From: Tenacibaculum sp. MAR_2009_124
GTDB taxonomy: Bacteria; Bacteroidota; Bacteroidia; Flavobacteriales; Flavobacteriaceae
Direction of reading: 5' to 3'
Assembly (NCBI RefSeq): GCF_900105455.1
Contig: NZ_FNSF01000001.1
Span: 1,369,001-1,433,000, forward strand
Length of the DNA stretch: 64,000 nt
Position numbers and translations under genes: made by a program
The notes under the pieces: generated by a model
Told to the model about the DNA's origin: nothing
Database searches by the model: none
What the model saw: the letters and a program-made list of their open reading frames with translations, nothing else
In this document: in pieces, positions 987-11,095 of the stretch
Numbering within the stretch: the stretch's first letter is position 1
Layout of the letters: each line of letters opens with the position of its first letter

Positions 987-1021
987 TGATAACTGATAAC
1001 TGATAACTGATAACTGATAAT
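987..1021. repeat. 7-bp tandem repeat TGATAAC, five units
   Basis: Four exact copies of TGATAAC are followed by a fifth unit ending in T. It lies in non-coding DNA just downstream of the IS3 end. The unit contains stop codons, so it is not a coding repeat. No function is evident. Confidence 0.9.
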
Positions 1022-1263
1022 TAGTCATTAAGAAACTTATCATTTAAAATTCAATACTTAAAATTAAAATAAAGAGGTTACGGGAAACCGTAAGGATATT
1101 TCCATTCTTTTTTATAGGTTAGCATCATAAAGAAAAAGCAACCTGAAAGATTAACCAAATACTACGAATCTGGAGAGATATACGTGCTTTAACCGTATAC
1201 TTCATTCTCTCTTTTCTAATTGTAAAAATTTTCACTTTTTAGCGAGGCTTTTTGAATGATTAA

Positions 1264-1401
1264 CCAAAAGGATAACAAAACCCAAAAGGTCTGGTTATCC
1301 GGAAATATATAACGGATAACGATTATATTTGTATGGATATAACTAGTTGTATTTAATATGCTCAGCCTTTTGGATACCGAATATTCATTTTGGGTTTGTT
1401 A
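1264..1401 (+). other. interlocking inverted repeats (possible structured RNA)
   Basis: CCAAAAGG (1264-1271, again 1282-1289) is complementary to CCTTTTGG (1366-1373). The segment at 1273-1287 (TAACAAAACCCAAAA) is complementary, with one extra A, to 1387-1401. A 7-bp stem, GTTATCC/GGATAAC (1294-1300/1314-1320), sits inside. Nested and pseudoknotted pairings are both possible. No RNA family was assigned. Confidence 0.4.
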
Positions 1402-1532
1402 AAATTTCTTTCTAAGGGCAATTTTTAAAATACTAAGGAAAGAGACTTTAATGAAGTTTCGTCTCAAACTGTACGATTGACATCGTTGAGAGTTTCACTA
1501 TCAAAACGTTGGTAACGTAAAACAGTTTGACG

Positions 1533-1577
1533 AAGTTATCGGAAAAATTTGACAATGTCAAGTTTTTCCGATAACTT
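1533..1577. repeat. 45-nt near-perfect palindrome
   Basis: Arms 1533-1554 and 1556-1577 are complementary over 22 positions with a single T/G wobble, starting AAGTTATCGGAAAAA. There is no U-run directly after it and no upstream gene to terminate, so a simple terminator role is unlikely. Confidence 0.75.
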
Positions 1578-1768
1578 ACTGTATTATAAATAATTGCTAC
1601 AATATTAGTTAAATTTTAAGGGACCTTTTTTTATAACAGAACCTTATCAGTCAGTGGTTGATAAAGTTTATAATAAAAAAATAAAATGAAAATTGGAAAG
1701 GTTTTAAAGTAGCGACTGACAGACTACGTATTTTATAAATTGTATATTTACTATTGTATAAAATACTA

Positions 1769-1823
1769 AAAACAACACCCCATATACGCCATTAAAACGG
1801 CGCATATAGGATACGTTAGGCAT
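1769..1823. other. attC-like recombination site A
   Basis: The site has an AAC-ending box (1769-1776), an imperfect stem (1779-1790 with 1799-1810), an 8-nt loop ATTAAAAC (1791-1798), and a GTT-initiated box GTTAGGC (1815-1821) preceded by AC. This is the layout of integron attC sites (R'' core RYYYAAC, stem, R' core GTTRRRY). Both stem mismatches are C/A or A/C on the top strand, so they become G/T wobbles on the bottom strand, the strand that integron integrases recombine. No integrase is visible, so assignment rests on layout. Confidence 0.55.
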
Positions 1824-1840
1824 AATGAAGAACAACAACT

Positions 1841-2977
1841 ATGGAAGAACATATTATTTTTGAGAAAATTGATTTAATTCAAAAAATTATTAAGGAAAAA
1901 GATGTAAAAAAAATCCTTACCAGTGAAGATTTGAGCTTTTATCAAACTGCAATTGATTACATAAAAGAAAAATTAAATAACACCATTCCTTCGTTAGTTC
2001 AAGAATCTGATTTAACAAACGCATCGAATGAAATAGAATCTGCAGTTTCTCAATTAAACACATATGTTGGAAATGAAAATACAGGACATTTAAAAAACTC
2101 AAAAAACTCAATAATTTCTGCTTCTAATAGAATTAAAAATTTACCAACATTAATACAGGATAGTAAATTCAATTTTAGTTCTGAAATCATAAACTTTAAA
2201 AACTCGGTTTCTGAAAAAAATTCAGAATTCGATGAAGAATTAGAAAACCTAAAAGGACAACTATCAAGTTTAGATGATGAGATAACGGATAGAATGACTG
2301 AACTTAATTCTGTTAAGGAAGAATTGAGCGAAAAACAGAAAGAAATAGAAAAACTAAACACTTCCTTTGAAGAACAATACGAATCTGACCGAACTAAATA
2401 TTTAGAAAAATTAGAAGAACAAGAAAATTCTATTAAAAGCAATACAGATAATTTAGTCCAATACCTTGAAAAAAAGAAAACAGAAGCATCTAAAATTGTT
2501 AATGTAATTGGAAATATTGGAGCAACTGGAAATTTTCAGAAAATCGCAAACGACCATAAAAAAGATGCAAATCTTTGGAGATTTATTGCAATACTATTTA
2601 TGGCAGGATTGAGTGGTCTTATAATTTGGGCTATAATTGGATTAGGAGATAGTGAGTTCGATTGGACTAAATCATTAATAAGAATAATTGCTGCAGCTGC
2701 ATTGTCTTATCCAGCAACTTATGCATCAAGAGAATCTTCAAAGCATAGAAAACTGGAAAATTTTAATAGAAAATTAGAGCTTGAATTAGCATCAATTGAA
2801 TCTTTTATTGAAATTTTACCTGAAGAAAAGAAACAAGGTATAAAAGAAAAATTGGCTGAAAAATACTTTGGCAGTACTTTAGACCAATTTGAGGATGCTG
2901 ATTTAAAGTCAGATAAGGATTTCTCTTTACAATCTATAGAAAGATTATTTAAGGCTGTAAAATCACTAAAAGAATAA
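1841..2977 (+). CDS. cassette gene 1: coiled-coil protein with two membrane helices
   Basis: The function is unknown. The 378-residue protein has a long charged coiled coil (about residues 115-225, heptad-like E/L/K-rich), two hydrophobic segments near residues 246-268 and 278-295, and a charged C-terminal tail. There is no signal peptide, so it is probably an inner-membrane protein with the coiled coil in the cytoplasm. It starts 26 nt after a GTTAGGCATA box (1815-1824) and stops 5 nt before the exact reverse complement of that box (2983-2992), which is the compact layout of an integron gene cassette. Antisense ORFs here look like shadows of this Glu/Lys-rich gene. A role in stress or phage defence is possible but unsupported. 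Confidence 0.75.
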   Translation: MEEHIIFEKIDLIQKIIKEKDVKKILTSEDLSFYQTAIDYIKEKLNNTIPSLVQESDLTNASNEIESAVSQLNTYVGNENTGHLKNSKNSIISASNRIKNLPTLIQDSKFNFSSEIINFKNSVSEKNSEFDEELENLKGQLSSLDDEITDRMTELNSVKEELSEKQKEIEKLNTSFEEQYESDRTKYLEKLEEQENSIKSNTDNLVQYLEKKKTEASKIVNVIGNIGATGNFQKIANDHKKDANLWRFIAILFMAGLSGLIIWAIIGLGDSEFDWTKSLIRIIAAAALSYPATYASRESSKHRKLENFNRKLELELASIESFIEILPEEKKQGIKEKLAEKYFGSTLDQFEDADLKSDKDFSLQSIERLFKAVKSLKE

Positions 2978-2982
2978 ATCAC

Positions 2983-2992
2983 TATGCCTAAC
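2983..2992. other. attC-like site B, first half (R''-like box)
   Basis: TATGCCTAAC is the exact reverse complement of the box at 1815-1824 that opens cassette 1. It fits the integron R'' core RYYYAAC. The rest of this site lies at 4208-4329, beyond the IS110 copy inserted directly after this box. Confidence 0.55.
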
Positions 2993-3024
2993 AAAGAACT
3001 GAGGTAAAAACCAAATAAAACTTC

Positions 3025-3996
3025 TTAATTATTAACCAAAGTACTCTTGTACTGATTGTTGTATGGAACACCATTTTTGACAATAGAAAATGCTTGTTTT
3101 AGTAATTTGTTGCATACTGCTATTAAAGCTAGTTTTTTACTTTTTCCTTTCGCTACAATTCTATCGTAAAGCGCTTTGCACCCTTGGTTGTATTTACAAG
3201 CATTGAAACTGCACATAAATAGTAAATTCCTCAGTTTTGGATTGCCCATTTTACTAATCCTTGGTCTTCCTTTAACACTACTTCCACTCTGTCTTATTAT
3301 TGGTGTTAACCCAGCGTAACTACATAGTTCTTTCGAGCTTTCAAAACGATGAAAACCATCTGTAAAAACCAATAACATTAAAGCTGTTTTATCTCCTATT
3401 CCTGGAATGCTTTTTAATAAAGTTAGTGATTCTTGGTATTCTTTTTTCACATTATCATTTAATGCTTTTTCTAAAACCTCCATTTCTTTTTTGAGTTTTT
3501 TCAAACTTCTATTCAAAGAGTTAACAACAACTTTTGATGGATACCCTAAAACTTCTTCTCCATGTATTTTGTTTTTTAACTGAGTACTTTGTTTACTATA
3601 AATACTGAGCATACGCAATAACTGGAGACTTTCTTGTTGAGTATCCGATTGACCAATCCACAACTTAGGTCTACGATCTTTTCCGTAAAGCTGAATCATT
3701 TTTGCATCACTCTTATCAGTCTTTATTTTCGATAAGTCCATTTGGATATAACGTTTTATTTTTAATGGATTAACCACACTAACTCCAAAACCTAACTCCA
3801 ACAAAAAATAAGCTAATCGAGTATGATAATATCCTGTGGCTTCCATAACGCAAATGGTATTTGAATCCAGTAATTTAACTAACTTTCTGAAACCAGAAAG
3901 ATTGTTCTTAAATTGATAATACGCTAAGTTATTATCACATACATCAAAGAAATCTTTACTAATGTCAATTCCTAAATATTTTATATCTTTATTCAT
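3025..3996 (-). CDS. IS110-family transposase (DEDD), copy 1
   Basis: This is a 323-residue recombinase of the IS110/IS116/IS902 type. The N-terminal RuvC-like DEDD domain shows Asp in YLGIDISKD, Glu in VMEATGYYH and the Asp pair in KTDKSDAKMI. A helix-hairpin-helix (LLKSIPGIGDKTAL) is followed by the C-terminal Transposase_20 domain with SGSSVKGRPRISKMGN, containing the conserved Ser region. In characterised members the enzyme works with a bispecific bridge RNA encoded in the element's non-coding end. It differs from copy 2 (5208-6179) at only about 8 residues, so both were mobile recently. It appears intact. Confidence 0.92.
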   Translation of the reverse strand: MNKDIKYLGIDISKDFFDVCDNNLAYYQFKNNLSGFRKLVKLLDSNTICVMEATGYYHTRLAYFLLELGFGVSVVNPLKIKRYIQMDLSKIKTDKSDAKMIQLYGKDRRPKLWIGQSDTQQESLQLLRMLSIYSKQSTQLKNKIHGEEVLGYPSKVVVNSLNRSLKKLKKEMEVLEKALNDNVKKEYQESLTLLKSIPGIGDKTALMLLVFTDGFHRFESSKELCSYAGLTPIIRQSGSSVKGRPRISKMGNPKLRNLLFMCSFNACKYNQGCKALYDRIVAKGKSKKLALIAVCNKLLKQAFSIVKNGVPYNNQYKSTLVNN

Positions 3997-4200
3997 AAGA
4001 AAAAAGGATTGTAAAGAACCTATCTATTGTGAATTCAACAACTTGAAATCGAAGTCTAAAGCTTCATAGAACTGAACGAATTTAACATAGAAAAGAGCAG
4101 GGATTATCAATGTTGACGAGATCAAAGTCTCTGCGTATATCATAACCTTATTCCGCTCTTTGGTTCTGTATGATTAAGTTTCTAATTTAATAAAATGCTA
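3997..4200 (-). ncRNA. candidate IS110 bridge RNA region, copy 1
   Basis: In characterised IS110-group elements the non-coding end upstream of the recombinase encodes a structured guide RNA that pairs with both target and donor. The corresponding approximately 200 bp here contain several complementary stretches. They differ from the equivalent part of copy 2 (6180-6383) at only two positions by eye, matching the two copies' identical target position. The boundaries and pairing loops were not determined. Confidence 0.4.
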
Positions 4201-4207
4201 ACTTAAG

Positions 4208-4329
4208 CCGTATATAATTTATTGCTAGTTCTAGCCTACTTACGAAAATCCTCGCGGATTTTCTATTCAGTTTGTATTTGCTAAATTAGGTACTGAAACA
4301 CGCAACAAACTATATACACAACGTTGCCA
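4208..4329. other. attC-like site B, second half (long type)
   Basis: The 16-nt arms at 4210-4225 and 4302-4317 are complementary except at two positions. Both are A/C on the top strand and thus T/G wobbles on the bottom strand. An inner 8-bp hairpin, GAAAATCC-TCGC-GGATTTTC (4244-4263), lies in the loop. The site ends ACGTTGCCA with the R'-like box GTTGCCA (4323-4329). The centre is nearly the same as in site C (6391-6513). IS110 copy 1 separates it from its R''-like box at 2983-2992. Confidence 0.55.
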
Positions 4330-4358
4330 ACAATATAAAAACCAAATCGCAAACATTT

Positions 4359-5159
4359 ATGCTTTCATTTTTTAAATCAAAATCTAACTTAACGGAATCG
4401 GAATTTGCTGAAAAATTTTTGTCTGAATTAAGAAAGAAAGTTAACGGTTTAGAATTAGTCTCTATCAATGGACTCGAAATCACTACGAAACTAAAAGATT
4501 CTGACAATTACCGTCATTTTCTGGACAATTCTTACGCGGAATATAAAAATGACCCAAAGGATTTGAAAAACGTTATTGAAAAATATACATTTTCTGCAAA
4601 AGACCTTTTTCTTCCTCAAGAGCCTTTACAAAAAGAAAGAATAGTGCCCGTTATCAAAGACAAAAGGTACTTAATTGAGAGCTCTAAAATAATTGAGGAC
4701 TTCGAGAACACTCACGTTTATGAAAAATACAACTCGGAACTATATATTTTTTATGCAGAAGATAAAGAAAATACGATTGGATATTTCACGAAAGAAGAAT
4801 ATTCAAAGTTGGATTCTGACATTGAATCTATTAGAGAAATAGCAATCGAAAATCTGAATTCTCTCGTATCAAAAATGGAAAGACACGGAGAAAATGGATA
4901 CTTTATGTTAACAGCAGGTGGAGATTATGAGTCAAGTTTAATTCTATTTGACATTTGGAATAAAGAAAATTTTCCCGTGAATGGAAATTTAATAATCGGA
5001 ATTCCAGCTAGAGATGTTATTCTAGTAACTGGAACAAATGACAAAGAAAATATTGATAGACTAAAGAAATCTATCAAAGAAATAAATGAAACTGGAGACC
5101 ATATAGTTTCCGACAAAATATATGAATTAAAAGAAGGAAAATTTGAATTATGGGAATAA
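4359..5159 (+). CDS. cassette gene 2: DUF1444 (YtpQ-like) family protein
   Basis: This 266-residue soluble protein resembles the DUF1444 family (Bacillus YtpQ), whose biochemical function is unknown. Supporting features are the general length, the segment VIKDKRYLIES near residue 105, the central stretch with ELYIFYAEDKENTIGYF, and the late block GNLIIGIPARDVILVTG typical of the family's C-terminal half. There is no signal peptide or membrane segment. It starts 36 nt after a GTTGCCAACA box (4323-4332) and stops 5 nt before the exact reverse complement TGTTGGCAAC (5165-5174), again a cassette layout. Family assignment is by pattern recognition, with moderate certainty. Confidence 0.7.
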   Translation: MLSFFKSKSNLTESEFAEKFLSELRKKVNGLELVSINGLEITTKLKDSDNYRHFLDNSYAEYKNDPKDLKNVIEKYTFSAKDLFLPQEPLQKERIVPVIKDKRYLIESSKIIEDFENTHVYEKYNSELYIFYAEDKENTIGYFTKEEYSKLDSDIESIREIAIENLNSLVSKMERHGENGYFMLTAGGDYESSLILFDIWNKENFPVNGNLIIGIPARDVILVTGTNDKENIDRLKKSIKEINETGDHIVSDKIYELKEGKFELWE

Positions 5160-5164
5160 AATAC

Positions 5165-5174
5165 TGTTGGCAAC
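5165..5174. other. attC-like site C, first half (R''-like box)
   Basis: TGTTGGCAAC is the exact reverse complement of the box opening cassette 2 (4323-4332). The rest of the site lies at 6391-6513, beyond IS110 copy 2. Confidence 0.55.
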
Positions 5175-5207
5175 AAAGAACTGAGGTAAAAACCAAATAA
5201 AACTCCC

Positions 5208-6179
5208 TTAATTATTGACCAAAGTACTCTTGTACTGATTGTTGTATGGAACACCATTTTTGACAATAGAAAATGCTTGTTTTAGTAATTTGTTGCAAAC
5301 TGCTTTTAAAGCTAGTTTTTTACTTTTTCCTTTCGCTACGATTCTATCGTAAAGCGCTTTGCAGCCTTGGTTGTATTTACAAGCATTGAAACTGCACATA
5401 AATAGTAAATTTCTAAGTTTTGGATTGCCCATTTTACTAATCCTTGGTCTTCCTTTAATACTACTTCCACTCTGTCTTGTTATAGGTGTTAACCCAGCGT
5501 AACTACATAGTTCTTTCGAGCTTTCAAAACGATGAAAACCATCTGTAAAAACTATTAACATTAAAGCTGTTTTATCTCCTATTCCTGGAATGCTTTTTAA
5601 TAAAGTTAGTGATTCTTGGTATTCTTTTTTTACATTATCATTTAAAGCTTTTTCTAGAACTTCCATTTCTTTTTTGAGTTTTTTCAAACTCCTATTTAAA
5701 GAGTTAATAACAACTTTTGATGGATGCCCTAAAACTTCTTCTCCATGTATTTTATTTTTTAACTGAGTACTTTGTTTACTATAAATACTGAGCATACGCA
5801 ATAACTGGAGACTTTCTTGTTGAGTATCCGATTGACCAATCCACAACTTCGATCTGCGATCTTTTCCGTAAAGTTGAATCATTTTCGCATCACTCTTATC
5901 AGTCTTTATTTTCGATAAGTCCATTTGGATATAACGTTTTATTTTTAATGGATTAACCACACTAACTCCAAAACCTAACTCCAACAAAAAATAAGCTAAT
6001 CGAGTATGATAATATCCTGTGGCTTCCATAACGCAAATGGTATTTGAATCCAGTAATTTAACTAACTTTCTGAAACCAGAAAGATTGTTCTTAAATTGAT
6101 AATACACTAAGTTATTATCACATACATCAAAGAAATCTTTACTAATGTCAATTCCTAAATATTTTATATCTTTATTCAT
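5208..6179 (-). CDS. IS110-family transposase (DEDD), copy 2
   Basis: This 323-residue IS110 recombinase has the same domains as copy 1 (3025-3996): an N-terminal DEDD RuvC-like domain, helix-hairpin-helix, and C-terminal Transposase_20 with SGSSIKGRPRISKMGN. About eight substitutions separate the two proteins (for example A to V in DNNLVYYQF and P to S in DRRSKLW); most are conservative and none touches the visible catalytic acids. It is full length and probably functional. Confidence 0.92.
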   Translation of the reverse strand: MNKDIKYLGIDISKDFFDVCDNNLVYYQFKNNLSGFRKLVKLLDSNTICVMEATGYYHTRLAYFLLELGFGVSVVNPLKIKRYIQMDLSKIKTDKSDAKMIQLYGKDRRSKLWIGQSDTQQESLQLLRMLSIYSKQSTQLKNKIHGEEVLGHPSKVVINSLNRSLKKLKKEMEVLEKALNDNVKKEYQESLTLLKSIPGIGDKTALMLIVFTDGFHRFESSKELCSYAGLTPITRQSGSSIKGRPRISKMGNPKLRNLLFMCSFNACKYNQGCKALYDRIVAKGKSKKLALKAVCNKLLKQAFSIVKNGVPYNNQYKSTLVNN

Positions 6180-6383
6180 AAGAAAAAAGGATTGTAAAGA
6201 ACCTATCTATTGTGAATTCAACAACTTGAAATCGAAGTCTAAAGCTTCATAGAACTGAACGAATTTAACATAGAAAAGAGCAGGGATTATCAATGTTGAC
6301 GAGATCAAAGTCTCTGCGTATATCATAACCTTATTCCGCTCTTTGGTTCTGTTTGATTAAGTATCTAATTTAATAAAATGCTA
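6180..6383 (-). ncRNA. candidate IS110 bridge RNA region, copy 2
   Basis: This non-coding 5' end of IS110 copy 2 corresponds to 3997-4200 of copy 1. By the known IS110-group layout it should encode the guide (bridge) RNA. By eye only two bases differ from copy 1, both A/T swaps near the outer end. The RNA boundaries are inferred, not seen. Confidence 0.4.
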
Positions 6384-6390
6384 ACTTAAG

Positions 6391-6513
6391 ACGTGTATAA
6401 TTAATGGCTAGTTCTCGCCTACTTACGAAAATCCTCGCGGATTTTCTATTCGGTTTTTATTTGCTAAATTAGGTGCTTAAACACGCCACTAATCATACAC
6501 AAATACGTTATAG
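6391..6513. other. attC-like site C, second half (long type)
   Basis: The 16-nt arms at 6393-6408 and 6485-6500 match except at two A/C positions, which become bottom-strand T/G wobbles. The inner hairpin GAAAATCC-TCGC-GGATTTTC (6427-6446) is the same as in site B. The site ends with ACGTTATAG, giving the R'-like box GTTATAG (6507-6513). IS110 copy 2 separates it from the box at 5165-5174. Confidence 0.55.
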
Positions 6514-6525
6514 GTAACCGTAAAA

Positions 6526-7101
6526 ATGATACTTAAAAAGGTACATAGAGACTTTGAAAATTATATAAAACATTTAATTGATAAAACAATTATTAAAGTT
6601 GAATATGCAGAAATTGACTATCAAAAGTTAAACGGTGATTTTAATGAAAAGCCCTACTACTTTACTCATTTTAGGAATCTAGATTCAATTGATTTTTCAA
6701 TTTTCTTATATTCGAAAACAAATGAAAAAATAGAAATATATTGGGATGATAAATTTTTTCAATTTGGACTTGGGATGAAAATAAACGAGAAATCGGATTT
6801 TTCTGACTTTAAGATTTGGGATGTTTCAAATAACCAAATTTGGTCGGGAATCATTGGTGAAACCATTGAAAGTGCCAAGTTAAATTGGGAGGAGGTAACG
6901 ACGACTGATGAAAAAAATGGAACATCTGAAACCTTTATCTATCCGCAAGATATTTCATTAAAATTTTCCAATGGAATAATGGTATTTATTAGTGCTGCTG
7001 CTTTTTTAAATGAACATGACAATGAAGTTTTTGGAATGTGTGATAATTTGACAGTAACTAACAATGAAGAATTAGCACGAAAAACAAAAATGATAAACTA
7101 A
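6526..7101 (+). CDS. cassette gene 3: hypothetical protein
   Basis: The family was not recognised. The protein has 191 residues, is soluble and acidic, with no signal peptide or membrane helix. It contains a mixed alpha/beta-looking central part (DSIDFSIFLYSKTNEKIEIYW) and a late conserved-looking block (DISLKFSNGIMVFISAAAF). It starts 19 nt after a GTTATAGGT box (6507-6515) and stops 5 nt before the exact reverse complement ACCTATAAC (7107-7115). The general look resembles immunity-type or small intracellular hypothetical proteins common in Bacteroidota accessory DNA, but no function can be assigned. Confidence 0.7.
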   Translation: MILKKVHRDFENYIKHLIDKTIIKVEYAEIDYQKLNGDFNEKPYYFTHFRNLDSIDFSIFLYSKTNEKIEIYWDDKFFQFGLGMKINEKSDFSDFKIWDVSNNQIWSGIIGETIESAKLNWEEVTTTDEKNGTSETFIYPQDISLKFSNGIMVFISAAAFLNEHDNEVFGMCDNLTVTNNEELARKTKMIN

Positions 7102-7106
7102 AGGCA

Positions 7107-7162
7107 ACCTATAACACCACCTAAACTGCATTAAAACGCAGCTTAGCCAAAACGTTGTAGTG
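7107..7162. other. attC-like site D (intact, short type)
   Basis: This is the cleanest site of the array. It has the R''-like box ACCTATAAC (7107-7115), a spacer, stem CTAAACTGC (7121-7129) with GCAGCTTAG (7138-7146), loop ATTAAAAC (7130-7137, identical to the loop of site A), and the R'-like box GTTGTAG (7154-7160) preceded by AC. The single stem mismatch is A/C on the top strand, hence T/G on the bottom strand. The layout matches short integron attC sites. Confidence 0.6.
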
Positions 7163-7195
7163 CATTAAAACAAGATGCTAAGAGAATTATAATAG

Positions 7196-7648
7196 ATGAG
7201 AACTTATCCAGAAAACACCGAAGAACTAGAAAAAAAACACAGTTTTAGTTTTCCTTTAGATAAAAAAAAATTGGAGCTTATTCATAATAATGTTATTTTA
7301 CGTAACGATATTGCATACGTATTTTTAAAATCAAGAATATTAAATTCACTGAAAATGCATAATCTATTTGAAAACGAATTATTCAGTGAGTCATTTTTGG
7401 ACAAGAAATTTAACCAAACGGATAGACTTAAAATTTATAATGCAATAAAAAATCAACTTCCTATGCCAGCTAGTAGGAGAAATAAACTGAGCTTATCTTC
7501 TTTGTTTCAGCTAAATGAAAAACCAAAAATCGATACTAGAGTATTAACAATTAAAGACTTAATTTTTGATTTAATCAAGCAAAACAGATTCACTATTAAG
7601 GGAGAGTTTGAAATACTTTTTAAATATGAACTTGACAACTTAAAATAA
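7196..7648 (+). CDS. cassette gene 4: small hypothetical protein
   Basis: The family was not recognised. The 150-residue, Lys/Leu-rich, probably helical and cytoplasmic protein has no signal peptide. It starts 42 nt after a GTTGTAGTG box (7154-7162) and stops 8 nt before CACTACAAT (7657-7665), the reverse complement apart from the last base. That last base appears to be where a minus-strand group II intron end abuts. One protein per cassette in the same orientation is the pattern shared with its three upstream neighbours. Confidence 0.65.
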   Translation: MRTYPENTEELEKKHSFSFPLDKKKLELIHNNVILRNDIAYVFLKSRILNSLKMHNLFENELFSESFLDKKFNQTDRLKIYNAIKNQLPMPASRRNKLSLSSLFQLNEKPKIDTRVLTIKDLIFDLIKQNRFTIKGEFEILFKYELDNLK

Positions 7649-7663
7649 TAAAACGACACTACA

Positions 7664-7870
7664 ATGGAGTAGACGGCTCTGCCCTTAGATAGAGCAGAGT
7701 GCGCCTCTCAAATAAGTGAAACGATTCACTAACTCCAGAAAAAATCAAGAAATACAGTGATTACAACACCGTACGTGCGGCACTACGTGCTTCCTTTCGT
7801 CAAAAGCAGTTCTTTTTTCTCAGGAACATATACGGCGGTTCGGTACACATTACCATTAGGCTCTTTTCCC
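7664..7870 (-). mobile_element. 3' end of a group II intron (remnant)
   Basis: Read on the minus strand, the stretch carries motifs seen at the 3' end of bacterial group II introns. These are GAACCGCCGTATA paired with GTACGGTG (domain V-like), then GAGAGG, a hairpin closed by CTCTGC/GCAGAG (domain VI-like), and the closing CTACTCCAT at 7664-7672. An unusual insertion with its own hairpin (7704-7717) sits between the two domains. No maturase or 5' end is seen, so this is a remnant. Group IIC-attC introns are known to insert into the bottom strand of attC sites, which fits this position and orientation. The intron class was not determined. Confidence 0.5.
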
Positions 7871-7999
7871 CCTAATGATTAGTTTGTAATTTAAGCATAG
7901 GCTATATTAAAATAATCGAAAGCGTACCATAACTAATATCCCAATATGACTATTGATTGCAATTAGTATTTAATATATTTGTGATTAACTTGAAATCCC
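7871..7999. other. non-coding, AT-rich spacer
   Basis: No ORF or clear structural element is visible between the intron remnant and the DUF2200 gene remnant. It may contain decayed intron or maturase sequence, but nothing is recognisable. Confidence 0.4.
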
Positions 8000-8130
8000 T
8001 TAGAAGAAATTACATCTCCTCCTTACCCTCAATATCTCTTCCTTTTTACGACCTTTGGCAAGCTCATGAACTAACTTTTCCATTTTACTGGATTGCTTGT
8101 ATATTGGGAAGTTATCTTCTAGGCAGTAAA
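8000..8130 (-). pseudogene. remnant of a DUF2200 gene (3' end only)
   Basis: Translated on the minus strand, this segment gives an open frame containing KMEKLVHELAKGRKKEEILR and ending at a stop at 8000-8002. It lines up with the C-terminal third of the intact DUF2200 protein at 11235-11612 (EKLVDELAKGRKMEKILRVEK). Upstream of about 8130 the similarity stops, so only about 40 codons remain and there is no start. The divergence in sequence shows it is an older paralogue or allele, not a recent duplication. Confidence 0.75.
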
Positions 8131-8157
8131 CTCTAGAGTAATTACGGCTATTGAAAC

Positions 8158-8198
8158 AATCTTTTTAGTTATTTTTGGAAAAAATAGCTAAAAAGATT
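8158..8198 (+). repeat. strong hairpin upstream of the 8214 gene
   Basis: Arms 8158-8176 and 8180-8198 (19 nt each) pair with one T/G wobble around a 3-nt GGA loop. The hairpin ends 15 bp before the start codon at 8214. There is no clear U-run, so it could be a leader structure or the end of a small mobile element rather than a terminator. Confidence 0.6.
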
Positions 8199-8213
8199 AT
8201 ACATTAAATAAAA

Positions 8214-8969
8214 ATGAAAAGAGGAAAAAAAATTGTTATAGTTAGCTCCATTGTTCTAAATCTTGTATTCCTATATACTACATTTTCTACATCGGAAAAC
8301 ATCAACAGAACAGCTTATTGGCACCCATTTGAATTAAATTCAAATATCAATTTAGAATCCATAGTAAATGACGGGTATCGCTATTCAAGCGCTCCTTGCG
8401 GATTTGTGCAATACACTAAACAAATAGCAGACACCATTATTCAATATGAAGTTTACGTTGATTGCAAGACCTATGAAGGGGTTTATGAACCCATACTTTT
8501 CGAAATTGAAGACGAACCAACAGAACTTTCTGAATCGGAAACAAATGATACAGAAATAACTTGGGAAGAGGAAATTGCAAAAAACAAGTATTATCCTTGG
8601 AAATTTAATGAAGTAAAAGATTGCTATCAAGGAATTAATTGGAGAATATATACAGTTAATCTTGGAGAGAGTTTAGATTTAAATAAGGTTCGTGATTTTA
8701 TTCATAAGAAAGGAGGCAGAATAATTATGGAAAATTGGAGCGATGATAAAGGTGGCTCTGTAATTGTTTATTATCGAGAGAATGCTCTTTATTTTTGTGT
8801 GAATGTTTCTAAAGAAAAAATTGAGAAAAATAATGGATCATGGGTTCTTGGTATAACTAGAACTATACCTCATTTAGACTATTTGAAAGAAAGGCAAAGT
8901 ATTGATCGTCAGAAAAAGATGGATAAATATTACAATTGGGAAGCACATTATAACTTTCTAAAGAATTAA
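8214..8969 (+). CDS. membrane-anchored or secreted hypothetical protein
   Basis: The family was not recognised. The 251-residue protein begins with a short basic segment and a hydrophobic stretch (about residues 6-24), acting as a signal peptide or N-terminal anchor; no lipobox Cys is present. The rest is soluble and acidic, with a few cysteines (C62, C78) and a Trp/Tyr-rich second half containing RDFIHKKGGRIIMENW, suggesting an extracytoplasmic domain. It is monocistronic, preceded by a strong hairpin. It lies in mobile DNA and may be accessory. Confidence 0.6.
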   Translation: MKRGKKIVIVSSIVLNLVFLYTTFSTSENINRTAYWHPFELNSNINLESIVNDGYRYSSAPCGFVQYTKQIADTIIQYEVYVDCKTYEGVYEPILFEIEDEPTELSESETNDTEITWEEEIAKNKYYPWKFNEVKDCYQGINWRIYTVNLGESLDLNKVRDFIHKKGGRIIMENWSDDKGGSVIVYYRENALYFCVNVSKEKIEKNNGSWVLGITRTIPHLDYLKERQSIDRQKKMDKYYNWEAHYNFLKN

Positions 8970-9096
8970 TTATTTACTTCGGAATGTCCCTTATATAGCT
9001 ATTGGGATCTAAAATGAGCGTTCGATAAGGCAAAGTGTTTTTACTACTTTAGGAAAAATAACTTAACTATGCATACTTATAAAATTATAGTGCACT

Positions 9097-9669
9097 ATGA
9101 AAAAAAATTTAGTCGTATTAATACTGTTATCAATTTCCTTGAAATCCAATGCTTGTAGTTGTGAATGGGTTGGGAATTTTTCACGTATTGCTAAGCATTC
9201 AGGATTAGTAATTAAGGGAAAGGTTGTACAACATATTTATCATACTGAAAACGGGAAACGTTTCATAAATCATGATGAGTTTATTCATGAAACTCTAAAT
9301 AATGAGTTTGACCCAAATTACGGAACTGGAGAATCCATAAAAGTTGAAATCTTAGAAATTATCAGAGGCGAAGAGCATAGAAAAATTATTGAAATTTTTG
9401 ATACAGACGGCGCTGATTGTAGAGCCAGCATTCACAATTTCCAAACTGGGAAGGTATATATTTTCGCTACACATAAATCAATGGGAACTAGAAGGAAATT
9501 ACCTAACGAAACTAAAGATGATTATCAAATTGGAGCTTGTTATGAAAGTACGTTACAATATTTCCCTGAAGAAAATCAAGTTTATGGTATGATTAAAGGG
9601 AAATCATATAGACGAAAAAACATAAAATATAATTACGAGAAATTAAAGAGAAAATTAATGCAGTACTAA
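9097..9669 (+). CDS. secreted TIMP/netrin-like (NTR) fold protein
   Basis: The 190-residue protein has a cleavable signal peptide (residues 1-19) and then begins CSCEW at the predicted mature N terminus. It contains a VIKGKVV strand and later GADCRASIHNFQTGKVYIF. A mature N terminus starting with Cys-x-Cys, followed by a GKV strand and a later Cys plus F-x-x-G-x-x-Y-x-x-F, is the pattern of the tissue-inhibitor-of-metalloproteinase-like/NTR proteins common in Bacteroidota. Their bacterial function is unknown. It is probably periplasmic or outer-membrane attached. The assignment is by pattern only. Confidence 0.65.
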   Translation: MKKNLVVLILLSISLKSNACSCEWVGNFSRIAKHSGLVIKGKVVQHIYHTENGKRFINHDEFIHETLNNEFDPNYGTGESIKVEILEIIRGEEHRKIIEIFDTDGADCRASIHNFQTGKVYIFATHKSMGTRRKLPNETKDDYQIGACYESTLQYFPEENQVYGMIKGKSYRRKNIKYNYEKLKRKLMQY

Positions 9670-9849
9670 GCTTTAAGAGAAGAAATCAATGACAAAAGAG
9701 CTATTGAGATAATTAATGAGACTCTCCATTCGATCAACAATGAAGCTATTTTTCAAAGAAACTCTGAAGCACTAGAGAAAAGGTACTCCAAACCAACAGA
9801 AACATTATCAGGCTCGATATTTCAAGGGGATATCATTGATTCTAAAAAG
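9670..9849 (+). pseudogene. gene remnant interrupted by IS256
   Basis: An open frame of 60 codons with protein-like composition (for example REEINDKRAIEIINETLHS and SGSIFQGDIIDSKK) has no start codon. It begins right after the stop of the preceding gene and in the same frame. It is cut at 9849 by the IS256 element. Joining across the 8-bp target duplication continues the frame from 11198 to a stop at 11279-11281, antisense to the end of the DUF2200 gene. The family was not recognised, and the 5' part appears deleted. Confidence 0.5.
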
Positions 9850-9898
9850 GACACTATCCTAAAAAGTGTGTAAGTTCAAAATATCAGGGTTAGGTTAT

Positions 9899-11095
9899 TT
9901 ATAGCCTAATCCTTTTTTCAAATATAGCTAAAAATTGATTTAGAATTATGCCCCAATTTCTAATGGGCATTGTCCACTTTTTAGTACTTTCTCTTAAAGC
10001 TAAATATACCGATTTGATAACAGCGTCATCTGTCGGGAAAGAGAGTTTGTTTTTAGTGTATTTGCGTATTTTCCCATTAAGATTTTCAATAAGATTAGTG
10101 GTGTAAATAATAGTTCTTATTTCAATTGGAAAATCGAAGAAAACAGTGAGTTCATCCCAGTTGTTTTCCCAACTTTTAATAGCATACGAATATTTAGCTT
10201 CCCATTTATTTTTAAAATCTTTTAAAGCAGCCTTTGCGGCTTCTTTAGTTGGAGCTGTATAGATTTGCTTCATATCTTTAGTAAACTCTTTTTTATCTTT
10301 CCAAACCACGTATCTACAAGAGTTTCTAATCTGATGTACTACACATATTTGTGTGGTAGAATTAGGAAACACTGTCTTTATAGTATCTGTAAATCCGTTT
10401 AAATTATCGGTTGCAGTAATCAGTATATCTTGCGTTCCTCTGGCCTTAATATCAGTCAAAACACTCATCCAAAAAGCAGCTGATTCATTTTTACCTAACC
10501 ACAAACCTAGTACTTCCTTTTTACCGTCGGATCTAAGGCCTACAGCTATGTATATAGTTTTGTTAATAACCTTAGAGTTCTCTCTAACCTTGAAAACAAT
10601 TCCATCCATCCAAACGATTAAATAAGTAGCTTCTAAAGGTCTATTTTTCCATGCTACAATGTCATTAGTAATGCTATCTGTGATTCTTGAAATCGTTGAA
10701 GTAGAGATGTTAAAGTCATATAGCTCTCGGATTTGCTCCTCTATATCAGAAGCACTCATTCCCTTAGCATACAAAGAGATGATAAGATTTTCAACACCAT
10801 CTGTAGTACTTTCTCTTTTCTTTACCAACATAGGATTAAAAGATCCTTCACGGTCTCTTGGGACTTCTATTTCTGTTTCTCCTAAAGTTGTTTTTAACTT
10901 CTTCTTTGAATAGCCATTTCGAGAATTAGAGTTAGTGCTCTTTTGATGTTTCTCGTAATCTAAATGAGCTGATAACTCTCCTTCTAAAATCTTTTCAACT
11001 CCTCGTTTGTGAAGTTGTTCTATAAAGCTAGTTAACTCTGAGCCATCTTTAAATTGTTTTAGAAATTCGCCGTTTAATAAATCTTCTGGTTTCAT
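9899..11095 (-). CDS. IS256-family transposase (Mutator-type DDE)
   Basis: This is a 398-residue transposase of the IS256/Mutator superfamily. Visible motifs are the first Asp in [12 protein letters not shown], the second Asp in [10 protein letters not shown], the C/H-rich segment [15 protein letters not shown], and the catalytic Glu region [20 protein letters not shown]. Its length is typical, and it appears intact. It carries no passenger genes. Confidence 0.93.

Follow-up and report, generated by a model that had tools for sequence, protein, structure and literature searches.

Do the boxed single-gene units lined up at this locus constitute an integron-like cassette array and, if so, which recombinase could have joined them? 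The window, i.e. the whole stretch analysed, comprises 64,000 nt of the forward strand of Tenacibaculum sp. MAR_2009_124 (GCF_900105455.1, NZ_FNSF01000001.1:1,369,001-1,433,000). An initial annotation had reported four units (A to D), each starting with a GTT box and closed by the reverse complement of that same box, with imperfect palindromes in between. All four start boxes (1815, 4323, 6507 and 7154) are present, and the end boxes mirror them at 10/10 positions in A and B, exactly over 9 nt in C and at 8/9 positions in D, where 7657-7665 carries AAT instead of AAC (counted by eye). The palindromes are equally real: three are matched by a covariance model of folded sites (Table 1), whose training set consisted mainly of Flavobacteriaceae sites and included the two longest palindromes of the window, and the fourth, at the C/D junction, forms a stem in both folds. 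The reading of these units as cassettes is supported, and we consider it very likely that they belong to an array of a Bacteroidota integron-like recombination system with a Xer/XerA-type recombinase.

The initial annotation overlooked a leader and a noncoding cassette, NC (together 1261-1814), an attI-like core and two IS110/IS1111 copies, the transposases of which both contain the Pfam domains DEDD_Tnp_IS110 and Transposase_20. At up to 3 mismatches, the attI-like pattern has 9 sites in the genome and 1 on the control; the 12-mer GCATTAAAACGC of the C/D site has 4 copies and 0, respectively. The leader also contains TATATTTG, which we take to fit the Bacteroidota -7 promoter element. No Rfam family matched the window at the gathering threshold; with E up to 5, region 1000-10500 gave four weak sub-threshold matches, none of them to a group II intron.

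Table 1. Features of the putative cassette array (positions in the window)
Feature	Position	Strand	Remarks
Leader	1261-1345	+	Terminator-like stem (by eye), promoter-like element; resembles leaders at this genome's other array heads
Promoter-like element in leader	1324-1331	+	TATATTTG
attI-like core	1323-1348	+	TTATATTTGTATGGATATAACTA followed by GTT; pattern match, 2 mismatches
Noncoding cassette NC	1346-1814	+	R'' ends 1776; own attC-like body 1774-1814; five genome copies ending at GTT boxes
Short attC-like site	1774-1817	- (folded strand)	Covariance model 30.9 bits
Cassette A	1815-2992	+	R' 1815-1824, R'' 2983-2992; boxes 10/10 complementary
Cassette A ORF	1841-2977	+	378 aa, coiled-coil-like
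IS110/IS1111 element	2994-4196 (approximate ends)	-	Transposase 3025-3996; directly after R'' of A
attC-like site A/B	4204-4325	-	116.5 bits; training site; separated by IS from R'' of A
Cassette B	4323-5174	+	R' 4323-4332, R'' 5165-5174; boxes 10/10; orthologs boxed too
Cassette B ORF	4359-5159	+	266 aa, DUF1444-like; Pfam PF07285, 6.3e-12
Second IS110/IS1111 copy	5176-6379 (approximate ends)	-	Transposase 5208-6179; directly after R'' of B
attC-like site B/C	6387-6509	-	127 bits, E 8.5e-26; training site
Cassette C	6507-7115	+	R' from 6507, R'' ends 7115; exact 9-nt boxes
Cassette C ORF	6526-7101	+	191 aa
Short attC-like site C/D	7113-7156	-	Loop ATTAAAAC; stem in both folds; uncalled by model
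Cassette D	7154-7665	+	R' from 7154; R'' 7657-7665, last base changed
Cassette D ORF	7196-7648	+	150 aa

Paired boxes and predicted folded sites

Of the 48 window ORFs of at least 120 aa, 3 (A, B and C) are enclosed by an exact 9-mer pair, with the GTT box no more than 60 nt upstream of the ORF and the reverse complement of this box no more than 45 nt from the stop, as compared to 2 of 1880 shuffled flanks. An independent test is provided by the site model itself, which spans AAC...GTT only, so that the R' and R'' boxes lie outside it. Agreement, meaning at least 6/7 variable positions between the R' after one site and the R'' before the next, was found for 16 of 31 pairs of the Tenacibaculum genome (non-cognate pairs, 1.9%) and for 27 of 32 other pairs (non-cognate, 3.0%), a result equalled in 0/10,000 permutations. 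Copies of NC contribute 4 of the 16 agreeing pairs, and in 7 of the 31 the R' follows an attI-like motif, not an attC-like site. Among the 15 own-genome pairs in disagreement, an IS end replaces R'' in 10 (IS91 in 6, IS110 in 4); the remaining 5 involve a missed site or are without explanation. The input was 42/45 and 46/98 rows of two site listings, with own-genome loci counted once; opposite-strand duplicates and lone or weak sites (e.g. L079, L066, L115) were left out, and pairs more than 5000 nt apart or with another start in between were not counted. For ordinary attC sites, R'/R'' complementarity also extends over 9-11 nt (PMC2727003).

In the modelled folds, the bottom strand of the attC-like sites adopts R and L stems together with an unpaired spacer. 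Compensatory changes are found at 11 of the 16 pairs of the L stem, one G.T pair of which is present in 26/26 sites, and on the bottom strand a G invariantly comes next to the AAC of R' on its 3' side, as in most attC sites (PMC2727003). The bottom strand is the more stable one in 61 of 71 sites (59/144 for random stretches), a modest preference with a median of -1.8 kcal/mol, the top strand being favoured by 9/71 sites and 1 being equal; the count covers 71 distinct of 72 typed sites picked from the listed model matches. With regard to extrahelical bases in the L'' arm, both arms are free of bulges in 33 of 58 sites picked from the same matches and a bulge lies on the R''-L'' side in 11, in a procedure that handled four IntI-type controls imperfectly.

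Since boxes closely flank single genes and hairpins lie between genes, they might be thought to act in the RNA of accessory genes, for instance as terminators or mRNA ends. We regard this as extremely improbable: the better-pairing strand is the complement of the mRNA, the same cassette is found behind unrelated sites with homology from the GTT on, and the same GTT recurs in attI-like sites behind a recombinase gene.

The recombinase and its attI-like site

The initial annotation saw no integrase, which is correct as far as the window goes. Elsewhere in the genome, however, contig C2 encodes the likely integrase, a 369-aa tyrosine recombinase (G000:C2:76424-77530, minus strand), and the leader known from the window lies behind its gene together with an array. 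The recombinase is matched by Pfam Phage_integrase (9.6e-41), and its catalytic residues R216, K244, H305, R308, H331 and Y340, i.e. a complete R-K-H-R-H-Y set, are invariant in the 12/12 aligned members of the family, all of which have an N-terminal extension of about 75-85 residues. By profile, the closest solved relatives are 4A8E and XerA 5HXY, with equal core length. Where the family profile has 19 residues, IntI4 (2A3V) has 62, while XerA and XerD align without a break; as judged from the alignments, the additional I2 domain of IntI is absent from the family. The Arg(I)-His(II) spacing is 88-90 in the Bacteroidota recombinases (94 in L078) as against 131-132 in six loci from other phyla, which TIGR02249 (373-488 bits) identifies as IntI. 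The three family members scanned with that model, the own recombinase (192.2 bits), L059 (190.6) and L070 (196.4), do not reach its cut-off of 265 bits; L070 is the one array member to pass the NF040815 XerA cut-off (243 vs 220). The initial annotation had proposed a search for the IntI patch; the recombinase lacks it, so that the system is not strictly of the IntI class. It is integron-like in its working, yet falls outside the strict IntI definition, because the enzyme is Xer/XerA-like without the additional domain and because the boxes rarely conform to GTTRRRY (4 of the 45 listed boxes, in a list that contains repeats).

At 14 of 19 related loci, an attI-like motif, ATATAA-N(2-4)-GTT, lies no more than 260 nt past the stop codon of the recombinase gene (control, 40/1100), and at 12 of the 19 within about 60 nt of it; the other 5 are without a motif of that spelling, and 3 of 22 loci were dropped from the count. 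In 6 of the 14, including the own locus, GTT is preceded by TAnnTTTG, a promoter consensus that may mark a Pc promoter for the cassettes. A boxed unit begins within 260 nt of the stop at 23 of 43 loci (control, 38/500) and was not found at the other 20; of 48 loci, 5 with short flanks had been set aside beforehand. Behind the recombinase, unit chains reach 9, 7, 7, 6, 5 and 5 in six loci, with mostly 1-2 in shuffles; Winogradskyella ursingii and Algibacter onchidii are among the species with long arrays. Chains of 3-4 also exist in loci of other phyla, and a single shuffle gave 5; by themselves, therefore, none but the longest chains carry weight. The window chain is 2 (shuffles, 2-3), and the scan missed this array because ISs break it.

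Could a classical IntI-type integron act in trans, the Xer-like recombinase being a bystander? The attI/attC/cassette logic does equal that of IntI integrons, and Bacteroidota figure among the integron-bearing phyla in PMC9668308, PMC8618304 and PMC2426708; a recent survey gives one complete Bacteroidetes integron, that of Salinibacter ruber (PMC9024848). We nevertheless find this very unlikely, as the 99.99% complete genome has no TIGR02249 match above the cut-off, and both the close attI-like motifs and the long arrays go with the Xer-like gene. Nine split-recombinase copies flagged by TIGR02249 were rejected as integrase because they belong to IS91-like elements inside the arrays.

We therefore return to the Xer/XerA-type system. 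A cassette, gene or noncoding unit, would run from the GTT of its R' up to, but not including, the next GTT. The attC-like site of the cassette would fold as single-stranded bottom-strand DNA, the outer stem being formed, once the cassette is a free circle, by pairing of its R' with its R'' (9-10 nt). A recombinase supplied from another locus would then join the cassette, at the GTT, to another attC-like site or to the attI-like palindrome, which lies directly after the recombinase gene. The window array has an attI-like leader and no recombinase beside it, and so would either depend on an enzyme acting in trans or no longer change. We infer recombination, the role of this recombinase, the single-stranded substrate and the cleavage point. 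Like IntI-class integrons, the system has an attI-like site next to the recombinase gene, cassettes that all point the same way, GTT/AAC borders, cassette-own R'/R'' complementarity, a favoured bottom strand and IS1111-type elements in the sites; unlike them, it has no I2 domain, GTTRRRY is rare, and the recombinase gene is co-oriented with the array in the closely read loci. XerA/archaeal Xer and XerCD are alike in core length and in the solved relatives named above, but the N-terminal extension, attI-like sites and cassette arrays set the Bacteroidota family apart.

Occurrence and origin

The initial annotation suggested searching for more sites with a custom model. Among 296 Bacteroidota genomes, 71 have matches to the folded-site covariance model, against 0 among 37 other genomes. 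Of the 296, 42 have both sites and recombinase, with sites in 71 and the recombinase in 94 overall (Fisher p 3.3e-8). The model found no site in 52 of the 94 genomes with a recombinase; missed sites are to be expected because of its mostly Flavobacteriaceae training and the stricter filters of the phylum search, and some of these recombinases possibly have other jobs. Conversely, no recombinase was found at 1e-60 in 29 of the 71 genomes with sites.

In an AU test, grouping IntI and 32 Bacteroidota recombinases as one clade gave p 0.108, a value that demonstrates neither shared ancestry nor independent origin; six IntI rows form one branch in a quick tree (SH-aLRT 100). We put forward, tentatively and at somewhat less than even chance, that this is a second, separately evolved integron of Bacteroidota: an I2-less Xer/XerA-like recombinase would act on folded single-stranded sites, with G.T wobbles instead of extrahelical bases setting strand choice, in a widespread system whose cassettes would be shared between families and on plasmids. 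It would have been overlooked because IntI models score the recombinase below cut-off. Titles and abstract openings, in a search that had bioRxiv and most subscription journals outside its scope, gave no description of such a system. Integron integrases are said to have gained single-strand recombination via the I2 helix (PMC7790495), and the insertion is called essential, though incompletely conserved in its subgroup (PMC8138268). That the Bacteroidota family is without a domain regarded as essential for folded attC sites speaks against the preferred explanation. With attI-like and folded attC-like sites used by a recombinase without I2, the requirements for an integron integrase would become testable, and many gene cassettes not seen before would come to light, among them a candidate defence gene and genes carried on plasmids. 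The genes tet(X3) and blaVEB-3 were considered as cassettes of the system and are not claimed, the R'/R'' match being absent.

Cassettes as presumed movable units and the insertion sequences

NC is found in five contexts, directly behind attI-like as well as attC-like sites, always with GTT-to-GTT ends and with no IS ends at those junctions. Related copies exist behind different sites in two other species (the six G009 rows have 5 different flanks on the upstream side; the five G620 rows have 4, of which two are closely related). The initial annotation named the absence of boxes from orthologous loci as evidence against cassettes; in 249 family genomes besides its own, no more than two orthologs of unit B were found, and each is boxed (GTTAGCCACA), their GTT boxes being self-complementary and of other sequence. 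Cassette B is 91% identical in two genomes, vs about 50% for the flanks, and homology stops at the box. The attC-like body behind cassette B is not alike in G373 and G560, a point against the preferred explanation.

It is also conceivable that IS91-like or IS110 elements move the units, the boxes being their target sites, given that 9/9 IS91-like copies in the genome end at AAC (with a model match there in 8, two weak) and that 6/7 IS110 left ends lie behind boxes in the arrays. The IS-free junctions of NC and the long arrays behind the recombinase in other species make this most improbable; moreover, IS1111 elements are known to target attC in ordinary integrons (PMC11187229). The IS110/IS1111 copies resemble these IS1111-attC elements in sitting at one border of attC-like sites; the host sites are those of the Bacteroidota system, and the comparison concerns position.

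A further alternative, compatible with the preferred explanation and rather unlikely in our view, is that the window copy is a relic with immobile cassettes, comparable to a CALIN in having sites and cassettes but no adjoining recombinase. Two ISs inside sites and the lost box end of D speak for it. Unlike a CALIN, the window array has its own attI-like leader and a presumed recombinase of another type; the genome retains a recombinase with all catalytic residues, and three NC copies, that of the window among them, are identical, which suggests recent movement or copying.

Boxed cassettes, leader and noncoding cassette

Re-reading of the window sequence bore out the positions of the GTT boxes with which, according to the initial annotation, four consecutive cassettes (A to D) begin. 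Among 48 window ORFs of at least 120 aa, only A, B and C have an exact 9-mer GTT box (R', within 60 nt upstream of the ORF) and its reverse complement (R'', within 45 nt of the stop); with shuffled flanks as control, such a pair occurred in 2 of 1880 cases. The closing box of D has AAT instead of AAC at its end; the sequence GGAGTAGACGG... (7665-8000), for which an Rfam search gave no match, begins at the position expected for the last base of this box. The sites after A and B are each broken by an IS110/IS1111 copy (n = 2), which had been overlooked.

Coordinates of the cassettes, leader core and recombinase
Feature	Location	Strand	Remark
attI-like core	window 1323-1348		in upstream leader; overlooked by initial annotation
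Noncoding cassette NC	window 1346-1814		behind attI-like leader; overlooked by initial annotation
Cassette A	window 1815-2992	+	
Cassette B	window 4323-5174	+	
Cassette C	window 6507-7115	+	
Cassette D	window 7154-7665	+	
Recombinase, 369 aa	contig C2, 76424-77530	-	

The palindromic attI-like pattern, to which the window core has 2 mismatches, matches 9 sites of the own genome at up to 3 mismatches (6 perfectly), compared with 1 on the control. Of the two sites with 3 mismatches, one has no GTT and may be a chance occurrence. At 8 of the 9 sites (contigs C1, C3, C4, C7 and C8), no recombinase of the family described below lies directly before; the genome has a single match to this family.

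NC has five copies in the own genome: three identical, one at 98% and one at 84%. Their homology begins on the left at GTT, preceded in three copies by mutually similar attI-like leaders and in two by attC-like sites that differ from each other; to the right, it spans the attC-like body and stops at the GTT with which the next cassette, a different one in all five cases, begins. Related copies in two further species of this genus also start at GTT, behind several different sites. The counts are 5 in the own genome, at least 6 in G009 and at least 5 in G620 (loci L175-L199), and NC once immediately follows a recombinase's attI. Its conserved core looks capable of forming hairpins, and NC may be a cassette that carries a promoter or an RNA.

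The cassette reading was expected to fail if orthologous loci lacked the boxes. Besides its own, unit B has two orthologs among 249 family genomes, both having GTTAGCCACA and its complement as borders, with the tenth base mismatched in one of the two; identity is 91% across the cassette and drops to about 50% in the 300 bp on each side. Loci L172 and L173 have cassette B in common and differ in the attC-like bodies after the R'' box.

Structure of the attC-like sites

A covariance model, R1, was trained on 26 sites (two from the window) from AAC to GTT. With 150 of 4788 first candidates scored, it has at least 33 matches in the own genome at E ≤ 1 and at least 27 at E ≤ 0.001, mostly clustered. 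The L stem of the 26 sites has 16 pairs, with compensatory changes in 11, and a G.T pair in all 26, which becomes A.C on the opposite strand. The predicted folding of the bottom strand is better in 61 of 71 sites, compared with 59 of 144 random stretches.

Since the boxes lie outside R1, their agreement is an independent test. R' and R'' agree at six or more of 7 variable positions in 16 of 31 own pairs (4 of the 16 being NC copies) and in 27 of 32 other pairs (many of these sites were used in training, which leaves the boxes unaffected), as against 1.9% and 3.0%, respectively, of non-cognate pairs; none of 10,000 permutations reached either cognate total. Among the 15 own pairs that fail, 10 have an IS91 or IS110 end where R'' belongs.

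IS91-like elements, which carry a split Tyr recombinase and an IS91 transposase, are present in 9 own-genome copies; all 9 terminate exactly at AAC, with an R1 match at 8, two of them weak (L161, L163, L168, L017, L169, L170). Of seven IS110 left ends (window 2993 and 5175; L161, L168, L170, L210), six lie immediately after AAC(A) within arrays and the seventh follows ...CACTAAAAC.

The recombinase and class assignment

A search for a tyrosine recombinase with the IntI patch had been proposed. A recombinase was found on contig C2, but its family lacks an insert of IntI length, with 19 residues between two conserved blocks versus 62 in IntI4. Within about 65 nt it is followed by an attI-like leader closely resembling that of the window, then by NC, an lgt cassette, NC again and more boxed units, all in one orientation. 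The catalytic residues are unchanged in all 12 aligned family members. In a profile search, archaeal Xer and XerA were the nearest solved structures, followed by IntI4 and, after it, XerD; a fold search with the predicted structure (mean pLDDT 82, pTM 0.55) placed XerA, archaeal Xer and IntI4 on top. Between Arg(I) and His(II), the Bacteroidota members have a spacing of 88-90 (94 at L078), compared with 131-132 at six loci from other phyla, which are IntI by TIGR02249 (373-488 bits); three recombinase-family members score 191-196 bits, under the cut-off of 265. Some records call members 'site-specific tyrosine recombinase/integron integrase', which is a label and not a test.

In the anatomy tested, extrahelical bases and promoter aside, the system works like an integron with two exceptions: unlike in IntI-class integrons, the Bacteroidota recombinase has no I2 domain and the cassette boxes rarely fit GTTRRRY. 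Because both belong to the definition of that class, we do not file the system as an IntI integron. Judged from searches of open-access literature, it appears to be undescribed.

Distribution and cargo

In a set made up of the own genome and 38 relatives, 20 of the 39 have the recombinase (1e-40), some copies having internal stops. Among 296 Bacteroidota genomes, 71 have sites (1e-4), 94 the recombinase (1e-60) and 42 both (Fisher p = 3.3e-8); 20 of the 24 genomes with at least 4 sites have the recombinase. Outside Bacteroidota, none of 37 genomes has sites at 1e-4. Chained units behind the recombinase number 9 in Algibacter onchidii, 7 in Seonamhaeicola aphaedonensis, 7 in Rufibacter sp. (some boxes look doubtful), 6 in Flavobacteriaceae S0862, and 5 each in Winogradskyella ursingii and Bacteroidetes GWF2. 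The window genome, Algibacter, Winogradskyella, a Sphingobacteriales MAG and a Flagellimonas plasmid share one site type at 90-96% identity, a sequence similarity that speaks for exchange of cassettes between families. In one other family (G074:C33, G082:C44, G211:C17), the recombinase match is directed away from the sites, as in the classical integron layout, and the match to the profile begins no earlier than the core of the recombinase.

On the Flagellimonas marinaquae plasmid NZ_CP092416.1 (L211, 6905-7738), a DHFR-family gene lies between two model sites as a cassette whose boxes (GTTGGCATTC) match at 9/10 positions by eye; adjoining it are erm(F) and a recombinase relative with 40% identity. 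Further relatives (42-45% identity over 58-64% of the own recombinase) lie immediately upstream of tet(X3) on an Acinetobacter indicus plasmid (L213, 5028-7049) and of blaVEB-3 on a Klebsiella michiganensis plasmid (L214, 5142-6763), both genes being at the position expected for a first cassette; by eye, a palindrome and GTT precede each gene, and a matching R'' was looked for in both and not found. The Tenacibaculum finnmarkense plasmid CP116298.1 (L212) has two model sites, which score 112.6 and 109.6 bits; a gene annotated as a tyrosine-type recombinase adjoins one of them. An FRG-domain array gene (L015, 9965-10915) matches the PADLOC candidate defence family PDC-S15 (2.1e-122).
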